Shown: positions 5,248 through 57,507, counted from the first letter of the stretch. The stretch is DNA of 64,000 nt from an uncultured Acidimicrobiaceae bacterium (GCA_905182135.1 CAJJAG010000005.1:1-64000); one strand, 5' to 3'. The notes: generated from the letters alone by a model not told the origin. Program-made: numbers and translations.

Positions 5248-6531
5248 TCACCTGATGGTGTCGCCGTTGGGGGTGGTGATGGTGATGTCTCTGTCGGGTT
5301 GGCGGTGGACGGTGTAACCGCGTTCTTTGAGCCAGTTGTGTCTCGGGCATGAAGGCAGGCCATTGAGTTGGTTGGTGAGCCCGCCCCGGGCTGCGGGTTT
5401 CAAGTGATCTATGTGGCAGCGGCTTGTTGGCACATGACAGCCGGGCCAGTAGCACTCGGCGGTGGCGAGGACGACGCCGAGACGGGCGAGGCCGGTGAAC
5501 AACCGAGTTTCGGAGCTCATGTCAATGGTGACCCCGGAAGCATTCTGCACGACTCGCCGCAGGCTCGATACCAGACTGTCGGCAAATGCTGCTTGAGCGG
5601 CGATTGGGTGTCCATCGATATCGGTGATGTTGTACGTATCGGGATCGAGCAGGCGGGCGGGAGCGTTGATCCAGCGACGGAGGAGTTCTTCGTATGCGTC
5701 GGCGGTCCACACGATGTTGTGGACTCGTTTCACCGGGGCCGACGGCTTGTCGCTGTTGGCGGCATCGATGGCAATTTGACAGAGGGCGTCAGCACAACGT
5801 TGTTCGTTCGAACGCGCCAGCAGGTCTGTGCATGTATCTGCACCGTGGATCTTTTCGGCTTGGGACCAATCGTGGTTAAATTCGGCTTGTACATAGGCCC
5901 GGAAGACTTGGTTGAACGAGGAACCTTGCAAGGAGCCCAACTGGGCATCAAGCTTCCAGACCTTGCTGAAGTGATCCTGTGACAACCAGGCTCGGCGTCG
6001 GCCAAAGGATGGGTCCGCTGCGGGTTCAGGGCCGTCGCTGTCGTGGACTTCGAGCCAGCGAGCCACCTTTTTGGTAAGTCGGTGCATGCCGTAACGATGG
6101 GCTTGTTTAAGGAACCATTTTTGGTCGATCAGGAACCGGTCACGGGTACGAGGGTTCGCGAACGCCCTGCCTAACAGAGCGGCTTTGTCGACGGAGAGGT
6201 CGGCTTTGCGCCATACAGCGGCGATCAGCGCGGCGTCGATGATCATGCGACGGATTTGGTCTAGGCGATGGGACTCGGCGCTTGATACGCCGGCGACGTG
6301 TTCGAACATGACGCGGGCGCTGACATGGCCGTGGTCATAGAACGTGCGACTGGCGTCGATCTGAGCCAACAGATCGACCGCTGCGATCGCCGCCAATCGA
6401 CGAGTCTGCTCGACAGCTTGGATCTCAGCCACAGCGTGCTTTGATGACCCGAGTGACGGCGCACCTGCATTGACAACCTCGGTTAACGAGGTGATCGCAG
6501 GATCAAGATATGAGCGCACAGCAGCAGTCAT
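5248..6531 (-). CDS. DUF222/HNH endonuclease domain protein (13E12 repeat-like)
   Basis: The 427-residue protein has an all-helical DUF222 region followed by a C-terminal HNH nuclease motif at about residues 357-400. The key elements are CYWPGC, CHIDHLKP, a mid-motif Asn and CPRHNWLK, giving paired Cys for structural zinc, a His-Asp-His core, and a final HN. Proteins of this architecture are multicopy in actinobacterial genomes, where their role is unsettled; mobile or DNA-processing functions have been proposed. I placed the start at an internal ATG encoding MTAAVRSYL because the 20 codons before it are low-quality leader. It converges on the SDR gene. Confidence 0.85.
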   Translation of the reverse strand: MTAAVRSYLDPAITSLTEVVNAGAPSLGSSKHAVAEIQAVEQTRRLAAIAAVDLLAQIDASRTFYDHGHVSARVMFEHVAGVSSAESHRLDQIRRMIIDAALIAAVWRKADLSVDKAALLGRAFANPRTRDRFLIDQKWFLKQAHRYGMHRLTKKVARWLEVHDSDGPEPAADPSFGRRRAWLSQDHFSKVWKLDAQLGSLQGSSFNQVFRAYVQAEFNHDWSQAEKIHGADTCTDLLARSNEQRCADALCQIAIDAANSDKPSAPVKRVHNIVWTADAYEELLRRWINAPARLLDPDTYNITDIDGHPIAAQAAFADSLVSSLRRVVQNASGVTIDMSSETRLFTGLARLGVVLATAECYWPGCHVPTSRCHIDHLKPAARGGLTNQLNGLPSCPRHNWLKERGYTVHRQPDRDITITTPNGDTIR

Positions 6532-6910
6532 CGACACAACAGAAATCGATAGGAGTGAGGGGCTCGGAGAGCAAAGTCTCTCAAAGAGCAAGGTCTAGAG
6601 ATAACGGCTAAAGACGTCCGGCACCAGAGATGCTCTATTACCTTATCCCGAACACCAGTTCGATACAACTAAATATTAACATTGAAGCAATAACAGAAGA
6701 TCAGGAGCGAACCGGGCAGAATCGAGCCCAGCAGCATTGCCTGGTCAACCAACTGACGCGACGCAGTTGAGAAGACAGCAACGGCTGCCACACCCGCTGG
6801 GTCGCTTCGCATTTGGCCTTCTCACATGGTGAACGGAGACGCTTGCCGTCAAGTGCGATCGGCAGACGGGTCACTTCTGTTCGTTGAAGCACGCGTGCCA
6901 TGCTGAGAAG
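6532..6910. other. Spacer between the HNH and dehalogenase genes
   Basis: These bases lie between two divergent genes. Positions about 6640-6700 are clearly AT-richer than the surroundings and include an aaatattaac tract, so promoters for one or both genes may lie here. No convincing gene or RNA is seen. A minus-strand open frame over 6701-6991 overlaps the dehalogenase start and is probably chance. Confidence 0.5.
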
Positions 6911-7819
6911 ATGATCGCAGCAGACGAGACCTTTGACGGCACGTGGCCTTTTTCTGCCCAGTTCTTCGACGGTGCAGGATTTCGCCAGCACTACGTGGAC
7001 CAGGGCGAGGGCGAACCCATCATCTGCCTACATGGCCAGCCGACCTGGGGGTATTTGTATCGCCACATGATTGGTCCCTTGTCGAAACACAACCGGGTCA
7101 TCGTTCCTGATCACATGGGCTTCGGCAAGAGTGGCACGCCCCAGGATCGTGAATACACGCTGCAGAGCCATACCGAGAATCTGGCTGCATTGATCGAGCA
7201 TCTGGATTTGCGAGACATCACTTTTGTGATTCAAGACTGGGGTGGCCCCATCGGCACCGCGTACACCGTGCGCAACCCTGATCGAGTCAAGCGCTTGGTG
7301 TACATGAATACTTTGAACGGCTACGGCGGAAACAGCAAAGACCTCCCCAGCCCGAACGAGGCACCATGGTTACGGTGGATTGGTGAAGGTCTAGAGAATG
7401 GGCGCACCGAGCAGGTGTTGCGCAACCTGGGATCCACGGTGCTCTCGGTCATGAAGATCATCGGCTTTGACGTGCGCAAGGTCGACGACACGTGGATCCG
7501 GGCGTATTCGGAGCCGTTTCCGGATTGGGACAGTGCAATCGGCGGCTATGAGTTCCCGATCGACGTGTACCTCGCTCGTATCCGTGACTACGTACTAGCT
7601 GGTGCGGCGGGGGTGCCAGCGCTTGCCTCGAAGCCTGCCATTTTGCTGGAAGGAATGGCAGACAAGGGCATAGACCCCCAGCGAGCTATCGCTGACTTTC
7701 GTGGCATCTGGCCAACCAGTCCCGTGGTCGAGCTCGAGGGCGTTGGCCACTTCTGTCAGGAAGATGCCCCTGAAATACTGGTTGCCAGTATTCGGCAGTT
7801 CCTGCAAGCCAACCCTTAG
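6911..7819 (+). CDS. Haloalkane dehalogenase-like alpha/beta hydrolase
   Basis: The 302-residue alpha/beta hydrolase resembles the DhlA-type haloalkane dehalogenases. The oxyanion loop reads HGQPTWGYLYR, the nucleophile is Asp109 in VIQDWGG with the adjacent Trp110 in the halide-binding position, the likely acid is Asp251 in GMADKG, and the base is His280 in GVGHFCQE. An Asp nucleophile followed by Trp separates dehalogenases and fluoroacetate dehalogenases from Ser esterases. Such enzymes hydrolyse carbon-halogen bonds to alcohol plus halide in the cytoplasm. The start is the ATG preceded by gagaag; an ATG nine codons upstream is possible. No halide transporter or regulator is next to it. 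Confidence 0.85.
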   Translation: MIAADETFDGTWPFSAQFFDGAGFRQHYVDQGEGEPIICLHGQPTWGYLYRHMIGPLSKHNRVIVPDHMGFGKSGTPQDREYTLQSHTENLAALIEHLDLRDITFVIQDWGGPIGTAYTVRNPDRVKRLVYMNTLNGYGGNSKDLPSPNEAPWLRWIGEGLENGRTEQVLRNLGSTVLSVMKIIGFDVRKVDDTWIRAYSEPFPDWDSAIGGYEFPIDVYLARIRDYVLAGAAGVPALASKPAILLEGMADKGIDPQRAIADFRGIWPTSPVVELEGVGHFCQEDAPEILVASIRQFLQANP

Positions 7820-39692: not shown

Positions 39693-39726
39693 AACGCATG
39701 GAGCGCTACGAACGCATGGAGCGCTA
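39693..39726. repeat. 18-bp tandem duplication, about 1.9 units
   Basis: The unit aacgcatggagcgctacg at 39693-39710 is followed directly by a second copy that is intact to its 16th base (39726). It spans the last bases of the spacer between the nucleoside hydrolase and the convergent TauD-type gene. Confidence 0.9.
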
Positions 39727-40644
39727 GTCGAACAGTTGGGATTTCATTGCTTCGGCTTGTGGGCTCAGCTCAGCCGACGCATGGTTCACCGCAGATTCAG
39801 TCACGGGATCACCAGCAATTCTGGTGTGCCACATGCGTCGGGGCTCGTCCATCTTCCACGGGACACCGCGATGCATGACGCAGCGGTTATCCCAAATGAC
39901 GGCCTCGCCAGCGGTCCACTGATGCTGATAGGTGCGTGGCGGCTGGGACGCAGCCGCGTTCAGCTTGTCGATCAGGGCCGTTGAGTCGGCTTCGCTCATG
40001 CCAACAATGTTGTGGGCATGACGCCCAAGAAGCAGGTTGGTTCGACCAGTGACCGGATGGACCTTGGTCAATGGCCGAAGCGACACGTCCATGTCGTGAT
40101 AGCCATACAGCCCGTAGGAGCCGTCCTCCTTCATGGTCGGCAGCAGATTTGATCGGCCCATGCTGTAATACAGCGAGTGGTACGCCTGCTTGCCTTCGAG
40201 TAATTCTTTGGTGGCATCGTCGAGTGCGTCGTAGGCAGCCCGGGCATCTGTCCAGCCGGTGTCACCTCCGCTGGGCGGAACGATCTCGGCAGTGAACACA
40301 GCGCCCTTAGCTTGGACCGGCATATAGGTGCTGTCGAAGTGCCAGTCTTGGTTGCCCTTCAGCGACTTGACCAAATCGTTGTCTTCAGCTGAATGGACCG
40401 TGCCATCGCTGGTGATGTTGGAGATGGCGGCAGCGGTGAATTCAAGCTCACCGAACCGGCGGGCGAACGTGTCCTGTTCGTCTTTGGACAAGAACTGGCC
40501 GGGGAAGATCAGCAGACCATATTCAATCCACGCGTCGTACACATCGGCGAAGGACTCTTCGTCCAGTTCGCGAACGTCGAGATCGTGGACCCACGCCCCG
40601 AACGTCGTGTTTTCGATCGGCGAAATACGCAGCCTGGTTTTCAT
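39724..40644 (-). CDS. TauD/TfdA-family Fe(II)/2-oxoglutarate dioxygenase
   Basis: The 306-residue protein has the iron ligands His102-x-Asp104 in DWHFDSTY and the distal His in CVMHRGVPW. The later Arg in WHTRIAGDPV would bind 2-oxoglutarate. TauD/TfdA enzymes hydroxylate a wide range of substrates, releasing sulfite, chloride or similar groups; the target is unknown here. The ATG at 40644 follows a ggggtgg ribosome site. A 23-bp direct repeat in its upstream region could influence expression. A second TauD-type gene is at 46409. Confidence 0.88.
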   Translation of the reverse strand: MKTRLRISPIENTTFGAWVHDLDVRELDEESFADVYDAWIEYGLLIFPGQFLSKDEQDTFARRFGELEFTAAAISNITSDGTVHSAEDNDLVKSLKGNQDWHFDSTYMPVQAKGAVFTAEIVPPSGGDTGWTDARAAYDALDDATKELLEGKQAYHSLYYSMGRSNLLPTMKEDGSYGLYGYHDMDVSLRPLTKVHPVTGRTNLLLGRHAHNIVGMSEADSTALIDKLNAAASQPPRTYQHQWTAGEAVIWDNRCVMHRGVPWKMDEPRRMWHTRIAGDPVTESAVNHASAELSPQAEAMKSQLFD

Positions 40645-40667
40645 TACAACCACCCCAATCGAACAAT

Positions 40668-40948: not shown

Positions 40949-43189
40949 CTAGTTCGGGGGTTCAGTGACGATGATGCCATCAGCCGCCAGGGTAACAATT
41001 TCGGTGCGGCTGAATCCAGCTGCATGTAACACGGCATCGTTATGTTCGCCCAAGGTCGGTGCCGGCATGAGCGAACGAATCGGCGTGGCCGACATTGCGA
41101 TCGGAGTGAGGAGGACGGTGAATGGTCCGACCTCGGGCTGATCGACGGTGCCCCAGCTAGATCGAGATTGCAAATGTGGATCCTGCGCCAGGTCAGGCGC
41201 CTTGGCAACCTTGGATGCAGCAAGACCATGTGCCTGTAACAGGATCGCAAGCTCATTAGCGTCATGTTCACTGGTGACTGCAGAAAAAGCTAAGTCGAAC
41301 GCATCATGGTCAAAGGGTGCGTCTGCTTCGAGGCCCAGATCAAGCAGGTCGCACAACGAGACAAGCGCAGCCTGGTCGATGATGGAGACCGCAATCCATT
41401 CGTCATCGCCAATGCAGCGGTAGATGCCTTGGGCCAGGTACTGGTCATCTCGATTACCGTTGGGTCGAAAGGGCCCATCGATTTGTGCTTCGAGGATTCG
41501 GTCACCGATTGCAGCCACGGTCGACTCGAATTGGGCCGCCTCGATCGTGGCGCCGCCGGTGCCGTGGGTCAGGCCACTCCAAAGCTGGCTGAGTACGGCC
41601 GATGTTGCGTGAAGGCCAGCGATCGGGTCAGGCCAGGCAATGCCGCCCTTCCATGGTGTCTGATCTGCGTACCCAATCAACGAGGACAGCCCGGCGTGCG
41701 AATCAACCGAGGATCCGTAGGCAAGCCAATGCTCGGCGGGGCCGCTTCGCCCGTACCCGGGCATGGTCAAATAGAGGAGATCCGGATTGAGCTCATGCAG
41801 CCGAACTTCGTCGAACCCAAGCTGGGGCATGACTCTGCTACTGAAATTCTCGAGCAGTACATGGAAGTCGGGTACAAGTCGTGCCAGCACGTCCTGGCCT
41901 ACATCAGTCTGCAGATCGAGCGCCAAGGATCGTTTGCCCAAGGCGTATTTCACGAAATGGGTGTTGCGGTTCCATTGACGTTCGCCCGGATCGTCGTTGG
42001 GGAAAAACCGGGTTGCTTCGACCAATGACGGAGGGACGCTCTGGGGGCCGCGGTGCCATGGGGCCTCGATCCATATGACATCGGCGCCTAGGTCGCTCAG
42101 AATGCGTCCACACATCGGTCCAGCCCAGACGCGAGCCAGGTCGAGCACACGCAGACCTGCAAGCGGACCATCGGTTACCGAACCCGGTTGCCAGGATGTT
42201 CCGTTGCCACCGGGCTGCTCGTGGCTTACCTGGAATGGCGGGCCAGGAACAGAGTGCGCTCGATCGGAGGCGAGTGGCTCAAAGAATGAGCGGTCGACCA
42301 ACTGCGGGTCCTCGAGTAACTCGAGCGGGTCGAGCAGCGGCGCTGCTGGGATCCTCATAGCCTGAAAAAGGTCAACGACCTCGGTGACGGGACGAGTGCT
42401 CAGCCACTCGTTGAGCGGCTCATCGAGCACCGCTGGGTATCGCTGGAAGTCCATGACCGAGTCGATATCGGGTCGATCGAGCAGCTCAAGTAGCCCGGTG
42501 ACGGCCAACAATCCTTCGACCTGGGGCCCGGTCACCGCAGTGATCGAGATCCAACCGTCGTTGCAACGGTATGGCCCGTTGGGTTGGCCCTGGCCGGTGT
42601 AGCGATTTCCCATCCGACAGAAAACATCGCCAGTCATGAACCAACGCAAGAGCGTGACTTGGTGCAGCGCTGCCATTACTTGGACATGCGAGATCTCGAC
42701 TGTTTGGCCATGGCCAAGCCGGTCGCGAGCCAGCAAAGCCGCCATGGTCCCAACAAAGCCATATAACCCTGCCGCTACCGCTGGCTGATCGGGCGGCCCC
42801 CGGAGCGGCTCGCGTTCAGGATCGCCGTACAGATAGGCATGGCCGCTTGCGGCGTAATCGGTCAGGTCGGTGCCAAGCCAGCTGGCATGATCCCCTGACA
42901 TGCCGAACGGACTGATCTGGAGGCGCACCAGGTGAGGGGCATCGAGCACACGGGGAGTGAGGGGTCGAGGTGCTGCGCTTTCGATGACAACGTCGACCGT
43001 TGCGAGGTCGATGTCGTCGATAGCCACGGGTTGAGCATTCGCGTACAGGTATGACTGCTTGTGGGGGCCGAGGTTGCTCTGGCCAACGATCATGACGTGA
43101 GCACCGCCGTCGGCAAACATCTTGGCGCAATACGCACCGGCCATCGACCCAGCGAATACCACAACAACAAGATTCCGCAGCGGCTTCAT
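40949..43189 (-). CDS. Two-domain CaiB/BaiF CoA-transferase
   Basis: The 746-residue protein contains two class III CoA-transferase modules in tandem, where usual family members have one module of about 400 residues. The first (residues 1 to about 330) starts LRNLVVVVFAGSMAGAYCAK and has GTDLTDYAASGHAYL. The second starts GLRVLDLARVWAGPMCGRIL and has the ALDL and ENFSSRVMPQLG signatures and SVDSHAGLSSL. Each has an Asp near the expected catalytic position. The enzyme would move CoA between carboxylic acids. Its start overlaps the EamA gene stop by ATGA, so the two are translationally coupled. Confidence 0.88.
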   Translation of the reverse strand: MKPLRNLVVVVFAGSMAGAYCAKMFADGGAHVMIVGQSNLGPHKQSYLYANAQPVAIDDIDLATVDVVIESAAPRPLTPRVLDAPHLVRLQISPFGMSGDHASWLGTDLTDYAASGHAYLYGDPEREPLRGPPDQPAVAAGLYGFVGTMAALLARDRLGHGQTVEISHVQVMAALHQVTLLRWFMTGDVFCRMGNRYTGQGQPNGPYRCNDGWISITAVTGPQVEGLLAVTGLLELLDRPDIDSVMDFQRYPAVLDEPLNEWLSTRPVTEVVDLFQAMRIPAAPLLDPLELLEDPQLVDRSFFEPLASDRAHSVPGPPFQVSHEQPGGNGTSWQPGSVTDGPLAGLRVLDLARVWAGPMCGRILSDLGADVIWIEAPWHRGPQSVPPSLVEATRFFPNDDPGERQWNRNTHFVKYALGKRSLALDLQTDVGQDVLARLVPDFHVLLENFSSRVMPQLGFDEVRLHELNPDLLYLTMPGYGRSGPAEHWLAYGSSVDSHAGLSSLIGYADQTPWKGGIAWPDPIAGLHATSAVLSQLWSGLTHGTGGATIEAAQFESTVAAIGDRILEAQIDGPFRPNGNRDDQYLAQGIYRCIGDDEWIAVSIIDQAALVSLCDLLDLGLEADAPFDHDAFDLAFSAVTSEHDANELAILLQAHGLAASKVAKAPDLAQDPHLQSRSSWGTVDQPEVGPFTVLLTPIAMSATPIRSLMPAPTLGEHNDAVLHAAGFSRTEIVTLAADGIIVTEPPN

Positions 43190-44475: not shown

Positions 44476-45510
44476 ATGGCGAACTATGACCGACACGAGT
44501 GGCTGGCGAAGCGACATGAGGTCGCGATCGACCCCAAGCGCCCGATCATCGACCCTCATCATCATCTCTGGGACCTAGAGGCAAGCACTTATCTTGCGGC
44601 CGAACTCGGCCAGGACACCCAGGCATCGCACAATGTGACCCACACCGTGTTCGTGGAATGCAGCTCGTCCTATGACGAGGGGGCTAGCGCCGCGTTCGCG
44701 CCAGTAGGAGAGACCCGGTTCGTCGCAGAGCAGGCGGAGCAGACGTTGTTGATTGGTGGCCCGACTATCGCTGGAATCGTTGGGCACGCCGATTTGTCAC
44801 TCGGCGCCGCAGTCGAGGATGTGCTCGCGCAGCATCATGACGCAGGCGCTGGCCTCTTCCGAGGTGTTCGTCACGGAACGAACTGGAGCCCGCACCCTGA
44901 CGTGAAAAATGGCCACCACGAACCTGGTCCTCGCTTGCTTCTCGACCCAGGGTTCCAAGCTGGAGCGGCTCGACTCGCGCAGATGGGTTTCAGCTTTGAT
45001 GCGTGGCTGTACTTCGATCAGTTGCACGAACTTGCCGACATGGCACGAGCGGTCCCTGAGTGCGCCATAGTCGTCGACCATCTCGGCGGGCCGCTCGGCA
45101 TCGGGCCACACGCAACCGATCGTGGCGAGATGATGCAACGATGGCGAGACGGCATCGCCCAAGCCGCCAGCTGTTCGAATGTGATGCTCAAAATCGGTGG
45201 ACTCGGAATGGAGCACTATTTCGGCACAAGCTGGGCCGGTCGTGACACACCGCCTACTTCTGAAGAAGTGGCGTCGTTTTGGCATGACATGGTGCATACC
45301 GCTATCAGCGAGTTTGGGCCGAGCCGATGCATGTTCGAGTCGAATTTTCCGGTGGACCGCCAAACGCTGCCGTACACCGTGTTGTGGAACTCGTTCGAGA
45401 TCCTTGCAGCGCCCTATACAGAAGCCGAACAGCACGAACTGTTCTTTGGCACGGCGAACAGGTTCTATCGACTCGGTGCAGAGCCGGCCTCAGAGGTCGG
45501 TGTCGGCTGA
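44476..45510 (+). CDS. Amidohydrolase family protein (TIM-barrel)
   Basis: The 344-residue hydrolase begins with a metal-site motif in PIIDPHHHLWD and continues with VIVDHLGGPLG, RCMFESNFPVDR and an FGTANRFYRL ending. That is the amidohydrolase-2 pattern, as in 4-sulfomuconolactone or gluconolactone-type hydrolases. The substrate is unknown. It diverges from the NIPSNAP operon and probably shares regulation through the inverted repeat. Its 3' end overlaps the carbonic anhydrase gene by 21 bases on the opposite strand. Confidence 0.88.
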   Translation: MANYDRHEWLAKRHEVAIDPKRPIIDPHHHLWDLEASTYLAAELGQDTQASHNVTHTVFVECSSSYDEGASAAFAPVGETRFVAEQAEQTLLIGGPTIAGIVGHADLSLGAAVEDVLAQHHDAGAGLFRGVRHGTNWSPHPDVKNGHHEPGPRLLLDPGFQAGAARLAQMGFSFDAWLYFDQLHELADMARAVPECAIVVDHLGGPLGIGPHATDRGEMMQRWRDGIAQAASCSNVMLKIGGLGMEHYFGTSWAGRDTPPTSEEVASFWHDMVHTAISEFGPSRCMFESNFPVDRQTLPYTVLWNSFEILAAPYTEAEQHELFFGTANRFYRLGAEPASEVGVG

Positions 45511-46408: not shown

Positions 46409-47293
46409 CTAATCGTCGTTCCAGTCAGCAGGTGAGCCAGCGACCGTGATGCGGCGCATCACTCTGCGCTCATTAGCGATGTCGTAGCCGAGGAGGCGAT
46501 GCAACGTCGTGCGGTTATCCCAGACGACCAGGTCGTTGACCTGCCATTGGTGTTCGTATACGACATCATGCACCGACAGTTGGGCCTCGATCTGGGCGAA
46601 CCGCTCGCGGCTGTTGGCAAGGTCTTGGTCAACAATGTGCGAGGCATGGCCACCCATGTAGAGCGACTTGGACCCATCACCGTTACGACGAACCCATCGG
46701 TGCTCGACCGGCGGGTACTTGGCCCGCTCTTCATCGCTCATGGGCTCCATTCGACCAGGATTATTCCCGCGCGAATATTCATAACTGTGCACGAGGCGAA
46801 GCTCATCGATCTCGGCGCGGTCCTCGGTGGGCAGCAGGCTGAACGCCCGGCGCATGTCGGCGAACTGAGTCTGCCCACCCTGGTTTGGCACTTCGACCGC
46901 ATAGAGCATCGTGCACAGTGCCGGGATTTCTCGGAACGAGCTGTCGGTATGCCAACGCTGTGTGCCGCGTAGAAAGACAGCTTGTGGCTCGTCGACCTCA
47001 ACCAGGTTCCCATCAGGACGAACATTGCTGAGGTTGAAAATTTCGGCATGGTCAGGATGACGCTTATCTGGTTCCGGGAGTATCTCAAGCTCACCGAACG
47101 CTCGTCCAAGTTGCACCAGTTGAGCCGGCGATATCACGCCAGTTTTGGCGTCGTGACTTCGGAAAACGAGCACCGCGTGCGACTGCAAGCCCTCTGCCAA
47201 CAGATCAACAAACTCGCTACTGGGCGTGGCCGCTGGATCAAAATCCCTAACGAAGGCACCAAGTGGCGCAGCCAAAGGTTCAAACTCGATCAC
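46409..47293 (-). CDS. TauD/TfdA-family Fe(II)/2-oxoglutarate dioxygenase
   Basis: The 294-residue enzyme has iron ligands His115-x-Asp117 in RWHTDSSFRE and the distal His in TTLHRLLGYD. The Arg in RRVMRRITVAG would bind 2-oxoglutarate. It is the last gene of the four-gene cluster SDR, aldolase, PhyH, TauD. The GTG start overlaps the PhyH stop codon as GTGA, which decides between this and an earlier TTG at 47311. The substrate is unknown. It is not closely similar to the TauD-type protein at 39724. Confidence 0.87.
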   Translation of the reverse strand: MIEFEPLAAPLGAFVRDFDPAATPSSEFVDLLAEGLQSHAVLVFRSHDAKTGVISPAQLVQLGRAFGELEILPEPDKRHPDHAEIFNLSNVRPDGNLVEVDEPQAVFLRGTQRWHTDSSFREIPALCTMLYAVEVPNQGGQTQFADMRRAFSLLPTEDRAEIDELRLVHSYEYSRGNNPGRMEPMSDEERAKYPPVEHRWVRRNGDGSKSLYMGGHASHIVDQDLANSRERFAQIEAQLSVHDVVYEHQWQVNDLVVWDNRTTLHRLLGYDIANERRVMRRITVAGSPADWNDD

Positions 47294-48093
47294 GCGAACT
47301 GCAGCAGACAATCATCGGCCCCGGGTTGAACCGGCGAGAAGTCACGCGCTGCGTAATACTCCGGGCGCTCATAGGACTCTCCCCGATTGTCCACCGGACA
47401 CACATTGATATACAGCAATAGGCGACGCAGCGGGCTGATGTTCACGGACGATCCGTGTACGACCGTCATATCCATGAGCAGCATCGAACCAGCGGTTCCC
47501 GTGATCGCCTCGAGGCCATAGTCGCCGACTAGGCGGCTCATAGTGTAATCAGTGATGTCGTAGCGGTACTTGGAGACAGCCTCGAAGTCGGGTGCATCAG
47601 GATCGATTGCGGCCGTGGAGACGAGTCCTTCGTGATGACTGCCAGGAACAGCCAGCAAGGGCGCGTTCACATGGGTGACATCGTCGAGGAAGACGGCGAT
47701 CATGATGCCGCGCGGGTCGGGGACCCCGTCGACACGATGATAGGTGCCGAAGTCTTGATGCCAGGCCACGATCGAACCGTTTGTCTGTTTCATATTGATG
47801 CGCGACTGATGTACGAAGAAGTCGCTATCGAGCAACTGTTGGCTTGGGTTGACGAGCGCTGGGTGATGAACGAGGGCGCTTAATCGCTCGTCGAACAAGT
47901 GCATACCCCAACACACATGTGGTGAACCATCGGCTTCGCGTCCGACCTCGGGGCCAGGACGTTCCAAGACCTCCAGCGCAGCGGTCTGCAACACGTCAAC
48001 TTCGGTGGCCGAGAACGCATCAGGGAGCACCACCCATCCACGCTCTCGATAACTAGCGGTCGCTTCGTCGCTCAGCGTTATCTGGTCAGTCAT
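47290..48093 (-). CDS. Phytanoyl-CoA dioxygenase (PhyH) family protein
   Basis: The 267-residue Fe(II)/2-oxoglutarate oxygenase has His112-x-Asp114 in AWHQDFGTYHR, a distal His213 in VVHGSSVNIS and Arg223 for 2-oxoglutarate in PLRRLLLY. PhyH proteins hydroxylate acyl-CoA or small molecules in bacteria. The ATG overlaps the aldolase stop (ATGA), and the stop overlaps the TauD-type start (GTGA). The gene is therefore translationally coupled on both sides. Confidence 0.88.
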   Translation of the reverse strand: MTDQITLSDEATASYRERGWVVLPDAFSATEVDVLQTAALEVLERPGPEVGREADGSPHVCWGMHLFDERLSALVHHPALVNPSQQLLDSDFFVHQSRINMKQTNGSIVAWHQDFGTYHRVDGVPDPRGIMIAVFLDDVTHVNAPLLAVPGSHHEGLVSTAAIDPDAPDFEAVSKYRYDITDYTMSRLVGDYGLEAITGTAGSMLLMDMTVVHGSSVNISPLRRLLLYINVCPVDNRGESYERPEYYAARDFSPVQPGADDCLLQFA

Positions 48094-48869
48094 GTGGTAG
48101 CGCCTTCTCGAATAGCGGAAATTCCTGATGATAAGGCTGAGGTCATCAGCCCGATGTCGTAGCTATAGCTGACCATCCGGAAGCCGCGGCGTACCCAGTC
48201 GGCGCCGGTGGCTACGTCGCCTGCTAAGCATGCGGCTGCTTTGCCGTGGGTCTCACACGCATCAAGGATTGCGTCGATTCCAGCCTGCATCGTCGGGTGG
48301 TTTGTATCTCCGGGCACACCAAGGGAAAGTGACAGGTCGCCGTGTCCGAGATGGGCGACGTCGACGCCAGGAACCGACATGATCTCCTCGGCATTGGCAA
48401 CACCTTTGGCCGACTCGATAAGCACGCAGACCATGGTTCGGTCGTGCGCTCCCTCGATGATCTCAGGCACCGTTTTGGCGCTGTAGTCATCGTGTGCCCC
48501 GCCGAACATGGCACCTCGTTGACCCGTTGGCGGGTAGCGCGTCAGGCGGACAAGTTCCTCGGCCTGCTCGGCTGTCTCGCACATCTGGAACAGCAAACCC
48601 ATGGCTCCCAAGTCCAACAGTTGGGCAGTGTGCTCGTGGGTCGTTGCTCGAGGCCGAACGAGCGGCACGATGTCAAGCCCCCGGCACAACGCGAGCTGCT
48701 GCTTGATCTCGCTATAGGAGAAGCCGCTGTGTTCCATGTCATAGAAAACGAAGTCGGCACCCGCTCCCTGCAAAATTTGCGGTAGGCCGGCACTGAGAAA
48801 CTCAAAAACCATGGTGCCGTACAACGTCTCGCCAGCAGCTAGTCGTTCTTTCACGGGGTTCGATCGCAT
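48090..48869 (-). CDS. HpcH/HpaI-family aldolase
   Basis: The 259-residue TIM-barrel aldolase has DMEHSGFSYSEIKQQLALCR, which includes the active-site His47 and acidic residues, VRPRATTHEHTAQLLDLGAM, GRxxGxx-type PTGQRGAMFGG, and VAHLGHGDLSLSLG. The family cleaves 2-keto-3-deoxy acid derivatives to pyruvate plus an aldehyde, with a divalent metal. It follows the SDR gene and is translationally coupled to PhyH. The start is the ATG encoding MRSNPVKERL; the frame open before it is long and non-conserved. Confidence 0.88.
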   Translation of the reverse strand: MRSNPVKERLAAGETLYGTMVFEFLSAGLPQILQGAGADFVFYDMEHSGFSYSEIKQQLALCRGLDIVPLVRPRATTHEHTAQLLDLGAMGLLFQMCETAEQAEELVRLTRYPPTGQRGAMFGGAHDDYSAKTVPEIIEGAHDRTMVCVLIESAKGVANAEEIMSVPGVDVAHLGHGDLSLSLGVPGDTNHPTMQAGIDAILDACETHGKAAACLAGDVATGADWVRRGFRMVSYSYDIGLMTSALSSGISAIREGATT

Positions 48870-49017
48870 AACGATGAAGCTAGTTCCTGACGCTGGCCAA
48901 GTTTTAGGCGACGACAGCGTGCGGACCGGCCGGGCGGCTAGACCCGGTTGGTCGGTGGCGAAATGTTCCTTGGCCAGTCGACCATTTCGCCATGGCCATT
49001 CAGACCGTAAGGAGCAT

Positions 49018-49794
49018 TTAGATGTGACCAGACGATCCACCGTCGACGCTGATGGCTTGCCCGTTGATGTAAGCCGCAGCGTCGGAACACAGGAAGACTA
49101 CGGCGTTGGCTACTTCTTCAGGAGTGCCATAACGCCCAACGGGAACGCCTTTGGAGTTGGCGGCCATTATCTCTTCTTGTGACTTGCCGGTTGACTCGGC
49201 GAGTTCACTGGCAGCGCGATCCCACATGGCAGTGTGGATCAAGCCCGGCAATATCGAGTTGACAAGAACGCCGTCTTGCCCGTATTTGCCGGCGAGTGCC
49301 TTGGCGGTTGAGATCATGGCCGACTTGGTTGCTGCGTAGTCGATGAGGGCCGCATTTGGGTACAGCGCTCCGACCGTAGAGATCATGACGATGCGCCCCC
49401 ATTGCTGTGCCCTCATGCGGGGGAGGACATGGCGAGTGCATCGGACAGCCGACATCATGTTGAGCTGAAAGAGCTGTTCCCAGTCGGCGTCATCCATATA
49501 AAGGAAGTTGCGTGACGGCGACGCACCGACATTGTTGACCAGAATGTCGACGTCGCCCATCTCTGCTGTCGCTCGTTCTAGGAAGTCATTGGTCGAGTCG
49601 GCATTGCTCATGTCGGCGACATAGCCACGAATGGTTTCGCCATACGCCGTCAGTTCGTTGACAGCATCTTGGCCTCGGGCACAAAAAGCGACCGTTGCCC
49701 CATGATCGGTGAGCAACCGAACGGTCGCTGCGCCAATACCCATGCTCGCCCCTGTCACGATGGCGTTTCGCCCCGTGAGGTCAAGATCGATCAT
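49018..49794 (-). CDS. SDR family oxidoreductase, first gene of the dioxygenase/aldolase cluster
   Basis: The 258-residue classical SDR has the TGASMGIG cofactor motif (14-21), NNVGASP, and catalytic Tyr153-x3-Lys157 in IDYAATKSAMI, with the C-terminal YINGQAISVDGGSS typical of the family. It is the first gene of the SDR, aldolase, PhyH and TauD set. The gap to the aldolase start is 148 bases, larger than the overlaps between the later genes. It probably oxidises a hydroxyl product or reduces a keto intermediate. The start has ggggga upstream. Confidence 0.88.
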   Translation of the reverse strand: MIDLDLTGRNAIVTGASMGIGAATVRLLTDHGATVAFCARGQDAVNELTAYGETIRGYVADMSNADSTNDFLERATAEMGDVDILVNNVGASPSRNFLYMDDADWEQLFQLNMMSAVRCTRHVLPRMRAQQWGRIVMISTVGALYPNAALIDYAATKSAMISTAKALAGKYGQDGVLVNSILPGLIHTAMWDRAASELAESTGKSQEEIMAANSKGVPVGRYGTPEEVANAVVFLCSDAAAYINGQAISVDGGSSGHI

Positions 49795-50953: not shown

Positions 50954-52183
50954 TCATCCGGCCATGTGGCGAACGGCGCCGAGCAGCACGGAGGCGCCTT
51001 GTTCGGCCTGTTCGATGGAGATATTCTCGGCCTCGTTGTGTGACAGGCCTTCGTCGCAAGGCACGAAAATCATGGAGGTCGGGTAGTGCGCTGCCACGTA
51101 GCAGGCATCGTGACCAGCACCTGAGACCATACGTTGATGGCTGAAGCCAAGCGCCTCCACCGATGCTTCGACCGCAGCGATGCAGTCATCGTGGAACTTC
51201 ACAGGCGGCGAGTCGGTGTCGACATGGATCGCGGTCGTGACCCCGTGGCGCTCGACCTGTGCGCTCACGATGTCACGCATAGCAGTGTCCATGGCCATGA
51301 GCGTGTTGCCATCGGGGTTTCGCATATCGAGCGAAAAGGTGATCTTCTCGGGAATCGTGTTTGGCGAGATTGGTTCGCTTCGGAACTGGGCAAAGGTGGC
51401 GCGAGCCCATGGTGCGTGTTCGTTGGCCAGCGCGTACACGCCACCCAAAATATCGCCCAGCGCTCGCGCCGGATCTTTTCGCACGTCCATGGGGGTTGGC
51501 CCCGCGTGAGCCGGGTGCCCACCGAGTTCGACGGTGTACCAACGAAACCCTTGCACCGCGGTCACGATGCCGATGTCGACCTGGTCAGCTTCCAGAATGG
51601 GGCCCTGTTCGATATGGAGCTCAAACGCTGCGGTGTACGGGCGAGGCCGTGCGGGAAGGTCGCCGTCCCAGCCAAGCCGAACGAGTTCTTCGCCAACTGA
51701 CACGCCGTCGAAGTCCTGATGCTTGAGGGCCTGCTCGAGTGGCAGTGCTCCTCCCCAGACTGCAGAGCCCATCATCGATGGTTGGAAGCGAGAGCCTTCC
51801 TCGTTCGTCCAGACGACGATCTCGAGTGGAGCTTCGGTCGTTACGCCCAGGTCGTTCAAGGTCTCGATCACTTCGAGGCCGCCTAACACGCCGTACACGC
51901 CGTCGAAGCGCCCGCCGGTTGGCTGGGTGTCCAGGTGTGATCCGGTCATGACCGGCGGCAAGTCTGGGTTGGTACCGGCGCGCGTCGCGAACAGATTACC
52001 GATTTCGTCAAACTCAAACGTGCAACCAGCGTCGGCCGCCCAAGACATGAACAGGTCGCGGCCTTCCTTGTCGTTATCGGACAACGCCTGACGATTCGAC
52101 CCGCCTGCTACGCCCGGCCCAATCTCGGCCATAGCCATAAGTCGCGACCACAATCGGTCGCCGTTCACTCGATCAGCTGTCAT
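50954..52183 (-). CDS. M20 zinc hydrolase of the carbamoylase/allantoate amidohydrolase type
   Basis: The 409-residue enzyme has MTGSHLDTQPTGGRFDGVYGVLG with a His and a bridging Asp, TNEEGSRFQPSMMGS with the catalytic Glu, FELHIEQGP as the His ligand in the central region, and SGAGHDACYVA near the C-terminus. This pattern is that of M20 N-carbamoyl-L-amino acid hydrolases, beta-ureidopropionases or allantoate amidohydrolases. It points to ureide or pyrimidine degradation, but the exact substrate is open. The ATG is supported by ggtgaag. It diverges from the SDR gene. Confidence 0.9.
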   Translation of the reverse strand: MTADRVNGDRLWSRLMAMAEIGPGVAGGSNRQALSDNDKEGRDLFMSWAADAGCTFEFDEIGNLFATRAGTNPDLPPVMTGSHLDTQPTGGRFDGVYGVLGGLEVIETLNDLGVTTEAPLEIVVWTNEEGSRFQPSMMGSAVWGGALPLEQALKHQDFDGVSVGEELVRLGWDGDLPARPRPYTAAFELHIEQGPILEADQVDIGIVTAVQGFRWYTVELGGHPAHAGPTPMDVRKDPARALGDILGGVYALANEHAPWARATFAQFRSEPISPNTIPEKITFSLDMRNPDGNTLMAMDTAMRDIVSAQVERHGVTTAIHVDTDSPPVKFHDDCIAAVEASVEALGFSHQRMVSGAGHDACYVAAHYPTSMIFVPCDEGLSHNEAENISIEQAEQGASVLLGAVRHMAG

Positions 52184-52246
52184 GGCTTCACCTATTTCTT
52201 GACGAACCTGTTTAGAGCAAGGTAGGCGATTTCGATCCAACTGTGC

Positions 52247-52261
52247 GATCGTGGAACGATC
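52247..52261. promoter_or_regulatory. Short inverted repeat in a divergent promoter region
   Basis: The arms gatcgt (52247-52252) and acgatc (52256-52261) are separated by gga. They lie in the 103-base spacer between the divergent M20 and SDR genes. A six-base palindrome could be an operator or chance. Confidence 0.25.
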
Positions 52262-52286
52262 AGGGCAGACAACTTCAGGGGAAGAC

Positions 52287-53204
52287 ATGGGAATCTGTGA
52301 CGACAAGGTAGTCATCGTGACCGGCGCAGGCCGTGGGATCGGACGTGGTCACGCGATCGAGTTCGCTCGCCAGGGCGCCAAGGTCGTAGTCAACGATATG
52401 GGAGGCGCCCGAGACGGCGAGGGTGGCGACCTGACAGCAGCACAGGAGGTTGTCGCCGAGATCGAGGCGATGGGTGGCGAGGCAGTTGCCAATGGAGATG
52501 ATGTCTCGAGTTGGGATGGTGCCGCCAACATGGTGAACCAGGCCGTCGAGCACTTCGGCGTGCTGCATGTTCTGGTGAACAATGCCGGCATTTTGCGCGA
52601 CCGGATGTTGGCGAACATGACCGAAGACGAGTGGGATGCCGTCATCAATGTGCATCTCAAAGGCACCTTTGCGCCAGCTCGACATGCTGCCGCATATTGG
52701 CGCGACATGATCAAGAAAGACACACAGGTCGAGGGTGCTGCGCTGATTAACACCAGCAGCACATCGGGCCTGTTTGGCAATCCGGGACAGACCAACTACG
52801 GCGCAGCCAAGGCCGGAATCGCATCGTTCTCAATCACTGCGTCGGCCGAGCTCGGCCGTTACGGCGTGACGGTCAACTGCATTGCTCCAGGCGCCCGCAC
52901 CCGCATGACCGAGGACCTGCCCTACGGGCAGCAAGAAATCGAGAAAGGCACATTCGACTTCCTGCACGCTGACAATGTTGCACCCACCGTGGTCTGGCTG
53001 GGGTCGAACGAACCGGCTGCCCGCGAAGTCACCGGACGAGTTTTCCTTGTCAATGGCGGAATGATTAGCTGCATGGAGGGCTGGGAAGGCGGTCCCAAGG
53101 CCAGAAAAGATGACCGTTGGGATCCCGCCGAACTCAGTGACGTGATCCCGGGCCTAGTCGCTAAAGCCAAAGAAAACGTGATGACCCGCCGTCGCTCCAG
53201 CTAG
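52287..53204 (+). CDS. SDR family oxidoreductase (hydroxyacyl-CoA dehydrogenase-like)
   Basis: The 305-residue SDR has TGAGRGIG at 12-19, NDMGGARDGEGG with an insert typical of MFE2-like hydroxyacyl-CoA dehydrogenases, NNAGILRDRMLANMTEDEWD, and Tyr171-x3-Lys175 in NYGAAKAG. The RDRMLANMTE sequence after NNAGI is a strong hint for this subgroup, which oxidises (3R)-hydroxyacyl-CoA. The start is the ATG with aggggaag upstream. Its 3' end overlaps the convergent esterase by four bases. Confidence 0.9.
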   Translation: MGICDDKVVIVTGAGRGIGRGHAIEFARQGAKVVVNDMGGARDGEGGDLTAAQEVVAEIEAMGGEAVANGDDVSSWDGAANMVNQAVEHFGVLHVLVNNAGILRDRMLANMTEDEWDAVINVHLKGTFAPARHAAAYWRDMIKKDTQVEGAALINTSSTSGLFGNPGQTNYGAAKAGIASFSITASAELGRYGVTVNCIAPGARTRMTEDLPYGQQEIEKGTFDFLHADNVAPTVVWLGSNEPAAREVTGRVFLVNGGMISCMEGWEGGPKARKDDRWDPAELSDVIPGLVAKAKENVMTRRRSS

Positions 53205-56034: not shown

Positions 56035-56118
56035 TTCACGAACGTACCTTGCGTGTAGCGCGTATTTGGCATCAGGGTGCGAATCGTGCTGCGCTGTAGC
56101 AACAACGAATGGGGAACA

Positions 56119-57507
56119 ATGCTGACCGGAGCTGAATATAAGGCGTCACTCGATGACGGCCGCAAGACCTATTTCGAGGGCGAGAAGATCGACGACCTGG
56201 TGGGACATCCGCTGCTGGGTCAGACAGCTGACATTACAGCGAAGGCATACGACAACTTCTATGACCCCGCGCCCGATGCCATATCGCCACTGCTTAGCGT
56301 GCCGCAGTCTGCTGATGATCTACGGGAACTGATTCCCATGCTGCACCACGCTGGGATGATGGCGCACGTCACCTCGTCATCGATCCAGACGTTGAAGACG
56401 GCTGCGGGCCGCATGGACGGCGTCAAGCCCGACTACATCGAGCGCATTGGCCACTACATCGATGAAGCGCAACGCGGTGATGTGCGGATCACGCAGTGCA
56501 TCACAGATGCCAAGGGCGACCGCTCGAAGAAACCGTCGGACCAGGATGACCTCGACAGCTATACGCGCGTTGTTGACCGGCAGCGAGACGGTGTTGTCAT
56601 CCGTGGTGCCAAGTTGCACATCACCGGTGCCTCATTTGGCCATGACTTGCTGACGATTCCGACCAAGGCCATGAAGCCTGGCGAAGAGGATTGGTCGATT
56701 GGTTGCATCGTGCCGGTGAACGCCGAGGGCGTGAAGATCATCAACACCACCTACGCGCCTCGCCACGACGACGTTCGCACGTTCCCGGTTTCGGGCAACT
56801 ATCACTACCCCGAAGGGTTCGTGATCTTCGACGACGTTTTCGTGCCGCACGAGCGAGTCTTCCTCGACGGTGAAACGTCGATGGCAGCGGTGTTCGCTCA
56901 CAGTCTTGGCTTGTGGGAGCGGCTCGGTGGTCTGTCGGCATTGGTCGAAGAGTGTGACCAACTGGTCGGCTTCGCCCAACTCGTTGCTGAGTCGAATGGC
57001 ACGGCCGGCATCTCGCACATTAAAGAAAAGATCAGCGAGATGATCATTCACGCCACCCTGGTTCGTGCGTCACTCGAGGCTGCCATCATGAACTGCAGCA
57101 TCGGACCTGACGGAGCGGCCTTCCCGAACGAACTGTTCGTTAATGCTGGGAAGTTTCACGCGGCAGCAAACTACAACCTGATGGTTCGTCACCTGCACGA
57201 CATCGCTGGGGGCGCAGTACTCACCGCGCCCGCACCTTCCGACTTCGAAAATGCCGAGGTCGGCGATCTCGCCCGCAAGTACATGTCGACCGGCAAAGGC
57301 GTCGACGGCGAATACCGGGCGAACCTGATGCACGCCATTCGAGACCTGACTGCCGATGCATACGGTGGCTGGAAGTTCGTGACCAATCTGCAGGCTGGTG
57401 GAGGTTTGTATGCGCAGCGCATCGTGACTCGTCGCCACTACGACATGGACAACGCAAAACGCAAAGCATTGGACATCGCTGGCATGTCTGAGGACGACGT
57501 TGGTTAA
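56119..57507 (+). CDS. HpaB/4-hydroxybutyryl-CoA dehydratase-family protein
   Basis: The 462-residue protein has the family's acyl-CoA-dehydrogenase-like layout: MLTGAEYKASLDDGRKTYFE, LDSYTRVVDRQRDGVVIRGA, and VFAHSLGLWERLGGLSALVEE near the active site. It resembles 4-hydroxyphenylacetate 3-monooxygenase and 4-hydroxybutyryl-CoA dehydratase. From memory of the dehydratase, the [4Fe-4S] cluster needs several Cys and a His in this region; the Cys is replaced by Leu here. A flavin-dependent hydroxylase or isomerase role is therefore likelier than the Fe-S dehydratase, but this is an inference. The ATG is preceded by ggggaaca. Confidence 0.82.
   Translation: MLTGAEYKASLDDGRKTYFEGEKIDDLVGHPLLGQTADITAKAYDNFYDPAPDAISPLLSVPQSADDLRELIPMLHHAGMMAHVTSSSIQTLKTAAGRMDGVKPDYIERIGHYIDEAQRGDVRITQCITDAKGDRSKKPSDQDDLDSYTRVVDRQRDGVVIRGAKLHITGASFGHDLLTIPTKAMKPGEEDWSIGCIVPVNAEGVKIINTTYAPRHDDVRTFPVSGNYHYPEGFVIFDDVFVPHERVFLDGETSMAAVFAHSLGLWERLGGLSALVEECDQLVGFAQLVAESNGTAGISHIKEKISEMIIHATLVRASLEAAIMNCSIGPDGAAFPNELFVNAGKFHAAANYNLMVRHLHDIAGGAVLTAPAPSDFENAEVGDLARKYMSTGKGVDGEYRANLMHAIRDLTADAYGGWKFVTNLQAGGGLYAQRIVTRRHYDMDNAKRKALDIAGMSEDDVG

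Follow-up and report, generated by a model that had tools for sequence, protein, structure and literature searches.

A Rare Aldolase-Oxygenase Gene Pair Shared by Acidimicrobiia and Proteobacteria, with a Possible Role in Small-Acid Catabolism

The class II pyruvate aldolases HpaI/HpcH, GarL, and YfaU/RhmA share with the aldolase described here their fold, their catalytic residues, and an expected chemistry that releases pyruvate. The trans-3/4-proline hydroxylase H11, the Leu hydroxylase GriE, and the ectoine hydroxylase EctD use small free amino acids or ectoine as substrates rather than CoA esters and are the proteins closest in fold and sequence (27 to 36% identity) to the PhyH-family oxygenase that accompanies this aldolase. 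TfdA/SdpA-type 2-oxoglutarate dioxygenases are the nearest solved relatives of a TauD-family oxygenase at the same locus. The nonphosphorylating L-rhamnose route, which uses either 2-keto-3-deoxy-L-rhamnonate aldolase or an SDR together with an FAH-type hydrolase, deploys the same kinds of enzymes (HpcH aldolase, SDR, and FAH hydrolase) on a 2-oxo acid with an oxygen at C4, and an FAH gene follows the genes discussed below in two genomes. That route, however, has no 2-oxoglutarate oxygenases, all equivalog scores here lie below cutoff, and no sugar dehydrogenase, dehydratase, or sugar importer was seen with the genes described here. Searches of a collection of open-access papers for this combination of enzymes found none that pairs these families. 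All parts of the module belong to known families, none is a known named enzyme by curated cutoffs, and their assembly is undescribed.

The locus and its enzymes

The window, i.e., the whole stretch of 64,000 nucleotides analyzed here (GCA_905182135.1, CAJJAG010000005.1:1-64000), comes from an uncultured Acidimicrobiaceae bacterium. It harbors four minus-strand open reading frames exactly where the original prediction had placed an operon of four genes running in one direction. These encode an SDR-family oxidoreductase (49018 to 49794; 258 amino acids; Pfam adh_short_C2, 3.8e-55), an HpcH/HpaI-type class II aldolase (HpcH; 48090 to 48869; 259 amino acids; Pfam HpcH_HpaI, 5.3e-30), a PhyH-family Fe(II)/2-oxoglutarate oxygenase (PhyH; 47290 to 48093; 267 amino acids; Pfam PhyH, 2.4e-23), and a TauD/TfdA-family Fe(II)/2-oxoglutarate oxygenase (TauD; 46409 to 47293; 294 amino acids; Pfam TauD, 6e-54). 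A mechanically assigned GTG start for HpcH (49040) was replaced by the ATG at 48869, as orthologues align from M(R/K)xN; TauD starts at the GTG at 47293. Both overlaps that had been predicted are present: plus-strand tcat at 48090 to 48093 corresponds to minus-strand ATGA, with the PhyH ATG over the HpcH TGA, and tcac at 47290 to 47293 corresponds to GTGA, with the TauD GTG over the PhyH TGA. Overlaps of like kind (ATGA and TGATG) were found again in other Acidimicrobiia, and this recurrence argues that the 4-base overlaps are not due to chance. The proposed translational coupling of HpcH, PhyH, and TauD is in agreement with these overlaps. It does not extend to the SDR gene, since a gap of 148 bases (48870 to 49017) separates SDR from HpcH and is poorly conserved even in alignment with the nearest relative, L026.

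HpcH is a member of its superfamily (PF03328, 104.8 bits; cutoff, 25) but falls below every NCBIfam equivalog cutoff (119 to 137 bits against 369 to 441), including that of the HpaI equivalog TIGR02311, 4-hydroxy-2-oxoheptanedioate aldolase (136.9 bits; cutoff, 368.8). Indeed, none of the four window proteins reached a curated specific function in NCBIfam. Residues D44, E46, H47, R72, E152, and D178 are kept across the clade to which HpcH belongs, and we assign their catalytic roles (an acidic/His/Arg set) from general knowledge of HpaI. HpcH differs from HpaI/HpcH, GarL, and YfaU/RhmA in that it belongs to a separate DMEHSG/AHDDY subfamily and has oxygenases, not homoprotocatechuate or sugar-acid genes, as partners.

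In PhyH, H112, D114, H213, and R224 are invariant among 28 sequences and form the HxD...H triad and 2-oxoglutarate-binding Arg of the family; the corresponding residues of TauD (H115, D117, H265, and R277) are likewise conserved. The metal and 2-oxoglutarate roles of these residues in both proteins are taken from general family knowledge. A structure model of PhyH (pLDDT 83, low around residues 107 to 113) matched the fold of H11 best (TM score, 0.84 to 0.85; 36% identity), followed by GriE and then EctD. PhyH shares with these three enzymes the HxD...H motif and an HQ-(S/F)-(R/K)-(I/V)-N-x-K stretch, whereas its GMHL and WHQDFGTYHRVDG motifs are specific to the module and its partner is an aldolase. 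Assignment of PhyH as the ectoine hydroxylase EctD/ThpD (TIGR02408) was rejected on its score (134 bits against a cutoff of 336.5) and on the EctD-type motif WHSDFETWHxEDGMP, which reads WHQDFGTYHRVDGVP in PhyH. Plasmid-borne PhyH relatives (31 to 37% identity) had no partner common to their contexts.

TauD scored 184 bits against Pfam TauD (cutoff, 27) and 104 bits against the taurine dioxygenase equivalog PRK09553 (cutoff, 313). The solved chains nearest to it, 5bke and 5j92, are both labeled 2,4-D-type dioxygenases. In contrast to TfdA/SdpA-type enzymes, the window TauD has no herbicide degradation context, and its orthologues (51 to 73% identity) accompany the aldolase-oxygenase pair in environmental genomes. 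The window also carries a second TauD-family gene (39724 to 40653, minus strand; 2.6e-55), with approximately 27% identity to the module TauD genes of other loci and with a 746-residue CoA-transferase III protein (40949 to 43189), an EamA transporter, and a NIPSNAP gene as neighbors. Elsewhere in the window are a hydantoinase/carbamoylase-family amidase above its NCBIfam cutoffs (50954 to 52315, minus strand) and an HpaB-type flavin hydroxylase (56077 to 57507, plus strand).

Conservation of the HpcH-PhyH pair

A scan for HpcH in 84,980 species genomes yielded 79 loci, onto which the window genes were mapped; as the short peptide patterns used came from one protein, the scan finds close relatives only. 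The neighborhoods of some GC-rich loci were read by tblastn, as open reading frame calling favored antisense frames. Acidimicrobiia contributed 26 loci besides the window (L026 to L049, L061, and L065), and PhyH lies directly 3' of HpcH in all 25 in which the contig continues. With the window included, the two genes are adjacent in 26/26 Acidimicrobiia loci with both sides visible, and their frames usually overlap or touch. Among 12 loci from Proteobacteria, with HpcH proteins in the range of 55 to 63% identity, PhyH is adjacent in 10, in the order PhyH-HpcH in eight, HpcH-PhyH in one, and divergent in one. Of the other two, L051 has the initial portion of a broken PhyH gene after HpcH, and L056 has HpcH alone, with a PhyH of 58% identity elsewhere in the same genome.

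In a tree of 78 HpcH proteins, a quick search without bootstraps and with long branches outside the clade of interest, the proteins of all these Acidimicrobiia and proteobacterial loci, and no others, fell into one clade (SH-aLRT, 100). No close PhyH was found in five genomes checked from outside this clade. HpcH and PhyH distances are correlated (r = 0.95 overall, 0.83 within Acidimicrobiia, and 0.96 within Proteobacteria; Mantel, 0/2000). Coselection of HpcH and PhyH across two phyla is thus well supported, and the core of the module is this aldolase and this oxygenase, not four genes. A sister HpcH subfamily without PhyH (L069 to L095, from Mesorhizobium, Aestuariivirga, and others) mostly has a 2-hydroxyacid dehydrogenase gene after it and, on an annotated Mesorhizobium plasmid (L144), a NanR-type regulator and a sugar-type ABC importer.

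The SDR gene behaves differently. Its product has the motifs TGxxxGxG, NNxG, and YxxxK. The gene lies beside HpcH in one of the 26 other Acidimicrobiia loci (L026, from the same genus) and in none of the Proteobacteria; orthologues (64 to 67% identity) in seven further pair-carrying genomes are on other contigs or far away. Together with the poorly conserved gap, this led us to reject the SDR as a module member; it is a local neighbor that probably falls outside the conserved module. TauD holds an intermediate position. It follows PhyH in 20 of 24 assessable Acidimicrobiia loci and is absent from four (L032, L043, L045, and L049), and most Proteobacteria have none or one from a different subfamily, which in L050, L052, L053, L054, and L057 is close to the pair. 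TauD is therefore the usual third member in Acidimicrobiia, yet it is dispensable: its close orthologues are missing from those four loci and from L059 and L062, so the pair does not need it to persist. The original prediction of aldolase, oxygenases, and SDR as one unit holds for HpcH and PhyH and, in most Acidimicrobiia, for TauD, and fails for the SDR, and the search that it proposed, for the same four families in the same order in Acidimicrobiia, found the SDR linked in L026 only. The conserved set is narrower than the four-gene operon first described and better conserved than could be known from the window.

We considered whether the genes are ordinary neighbors, i.e., cotranscribed enzymes with unrelated substrates. 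The SDR fits such a description, but the HpcH-PhyH adjacency with overlapping frames survives rearrangement across two phyla and the two proteins diverge in a correlated manner, which makes this explanation very improbable for the pair.

The module is rare and patchy. Of 148 genomes of the order, 4 had strong PhyH orthologues; of 395 sampled from the class, 1 had a close HpcH (the window's own); and no further copies in new genomes turned up among 301, 109, and 26 relatives of proteobacterial carriers. These absences are soft, because the window genome has a completeness of 60% and many of the relatives are metagenome-assembled genomes. This wider sampling showed rarity and added no anatomy.

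Importers, neighboring genes, and a possible pathway

The original prediction had proposed looking nearby for a shared transporter or a CoA ligase. No CoA ligase recurs among the neighbors examined, whereas in Proteobacteria an importer of the TRAP or Dpp-type ABC class repeatedly lies beside the pair. The order is DctP-DctM-PhyH-HpcH in Oceanibacterium hippocampi (L059; DctP at 6277 to 7302) and in L060, and L052 combines DctP and DctM (TRAP) with an orthologue of the window TauD (50% identity) and a second TauD. A Dpp-type ABC set ends in PhyH-HpcH in L053, L054, L057, and L058, with TauD divergent from it in the first three. In the genome of L056, the same ABC set (L141; 81 to 84% identity) has PhyH at its end and no HpcH, so that the imported compound is tied to PhyH. 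For the DctP proteins of L060 and L052, the nearest characterized chains are TTHA0766 (lactate), TakP (2-oxo acids), and 7ug8 ("Ketoacid-binding protein"). In TakP, pyruvate is held by Arg177 and by a cation whose ligands are Glu214, the Trp215 carbonyl, Glu240, and Gln156 (PMC1839085). The L052, L059, and L060 binding proteins retain Arg177 as well as an acidic residue where TakP has Glu214; that of L052 does not retain Glu240.

No importer was identified beside the window genes. In two genomes of the same genus (L029 and L046), genes for an FAH-type hydrolase and a D-2-hydroxyacid dehydrogenase come after the trio of HpcH, PhyH, and TauD; the best curated model for the hydrolase, 2,4-didehydro-3-deoxy-L-rhamnonate hydrolase, scored below cutoff. 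FAH enzymes from this group take 2,4-dioxo acids as substrates, compounds of the class that the aldolase also uses. In both genomes, the gene immediately upstream of HpcH encodes an ABC ATPase; it was rejected as a solute importer, as it best resembles FtsE/LolD-type ATPases, and recurrent flanking genes in Acidimicrobiia (DLH hydrolase, methyltransferase, and others) were rejected as partners because they look like lineage synteny. An Amidohydrolase_2 gene lies 0.9 kb past TauD in the window (44476 to 45510, plus strand) and has a 60% orthologue approximately 5 kb past the trio in L046 (12042 to 13037), so that it is possibly linked to the trio within the genus. In L028 (10222 to 12124) and L061 (10238 to 12130), TauD is directly followed by two consecutive sulfotransferase-like genes, and HpcH is preceded by an XdhC-like gene.

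Our preferred reading, which we rate a little short of an even chance, is that of an uptake-linked module for the catabolism of a small free acid. Import of the acid would come first, in Proteobacteria through the TRAP or Dpp-type transporter adjoining the pair. PhyH, as a member of the proline hydroxylase/GriE/EctD clade, would use O2 and 2-oxoglutarate to hydroxylate a 2-oxo acid at C4; alternatively, its substrate may be an amino acid whose product would be converted by a transaminase encoded elsewhere. The metal-dependent HpcH would then cleave the C3-C4 bond of the 4-hydroxy-2-oxo acid, yielding pyruvate and an aldehyde. At loci that have it, TauD may provide an auxiliary entry step, e.g., by oxidatively cleaving an ether- or N-linked precursor in the manner of its TfdA-type relatives, and the SDR would be at most a local addition handling an aldehyde or alcohol. 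Of the originally proposed sequence of hydroxylation, C-C cleavage, and a redox step, the first two, with a retro-aldol cleavage after the hydroxylation, still make the best chemistry, in an order that we infer.

What has been shown is the coselection of HpcH and PhyH, the conservation of their catalytic residues, and the linkage to importers; from these we infer the C4 site, the substrate class, and the part played by TauD. The TRAP binding proteins, with their lactate and 2-oxo-acid receptor relatives, and the PhyH fold favor this reading. The FAH hydrolase and 2-hydroxyacid dehydrogenase of L029 and L046 also favor it in that they point to 2-oxo- and 2-hydroxy-acid chemistry, but they occur with the trio only in these two genomes of one genus. 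The nearest relatives of PhyH, moreover, act on amino acids or ectoine and not on 2-oxo acids; an amino acid substrate would need a transaminase, and none recurs beside the pair. Dpp-type importers carry very different cargo, and the lack of TakP Glu240 in the L052 binding protein, of an identified importer next to the window genes, and of TauD at some loci also counts against this reading.

The nearest relatives of TauD raise the possibility that this TfdA-like enzyme does the key step, hydroxylating the carbon next to the carboxylate in an ether or amine (aryloxypropionate-like or opine-like) and releasing pyruvate or glyoxylate, with PhyH and HpcH processing the other half. The 2,4-D-type labels of these relatives, the other-subfamily TauD genes near the pair in five loci, and the Dpp-type importer, which suggests a larger conjugate, are consistent with this alternative, but the six loci that are missing close TauD orthologues make it rather unlikely.

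A biosynthetic module, in which HpcH works in the aldol addition direction and PhyH tailors the product into a hydroxylated amino acid or similar natural product, would suit the presence of the biosynthetic hydroxylases GriE and EctD among the nearest PhyH relatives. We consider it distinctly unlikely given the repeated linkage to importers with solute receptors, the absence of recurrent biosynthetic genes beside the pair, and the occurrence of the sister HpcH subfamily in regulator/dehydrogenase/importer clusters.

At L051 (4499 to 9199), PhnD and PhnE (a phosphonate importer) and the Fe-alcohol dehydrogenase PsrA are encoded upstream of an HpcH of the clade, the one with the broken PhyH partner. 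A phosphonate-related pathway could be read from this context, but approximately 800 bases separate the phosphonate genes from HpcH, the adjoining PhyH is a remnant, and phosphonate genes are in none of the other loci examined. We therefore rejected it as exceedingly unlikely.

Since unrelated aquatic bacteria have kept the pair together, in many cases next to nutrient importers, an undescribed route for breakdown of a small organic acid is probable. A bolder form of the preferred reading, in which a PhyH-clade oxygenase hydroxylates an imported 2-oxo acid at C4 for a dedicated HpaI-type aldolase, would represent an unrecognized logic in Actinomycetota and Proteobacteria, acid shortening without CoA activation; we regard this as a speculative possibility that is somewhat unlikely to hold in full. 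The module can now be defined as one HpaI-type aldolase clade with a near-constant PhyH partner. It is carried by freshwater and marine Acidimicrobiia, mostly uncultured, and, among named and deposited strains, by Oceanibacterium hippocampi CECT 7691, in which a TRAP importer adjoins it. Should the reaction order prove correct, these aquatic bacteria would shorten small acids in a CoA-free and oxygen-dependent manner, and functions would be assigned to two groups of enzymes that databases name by family only.
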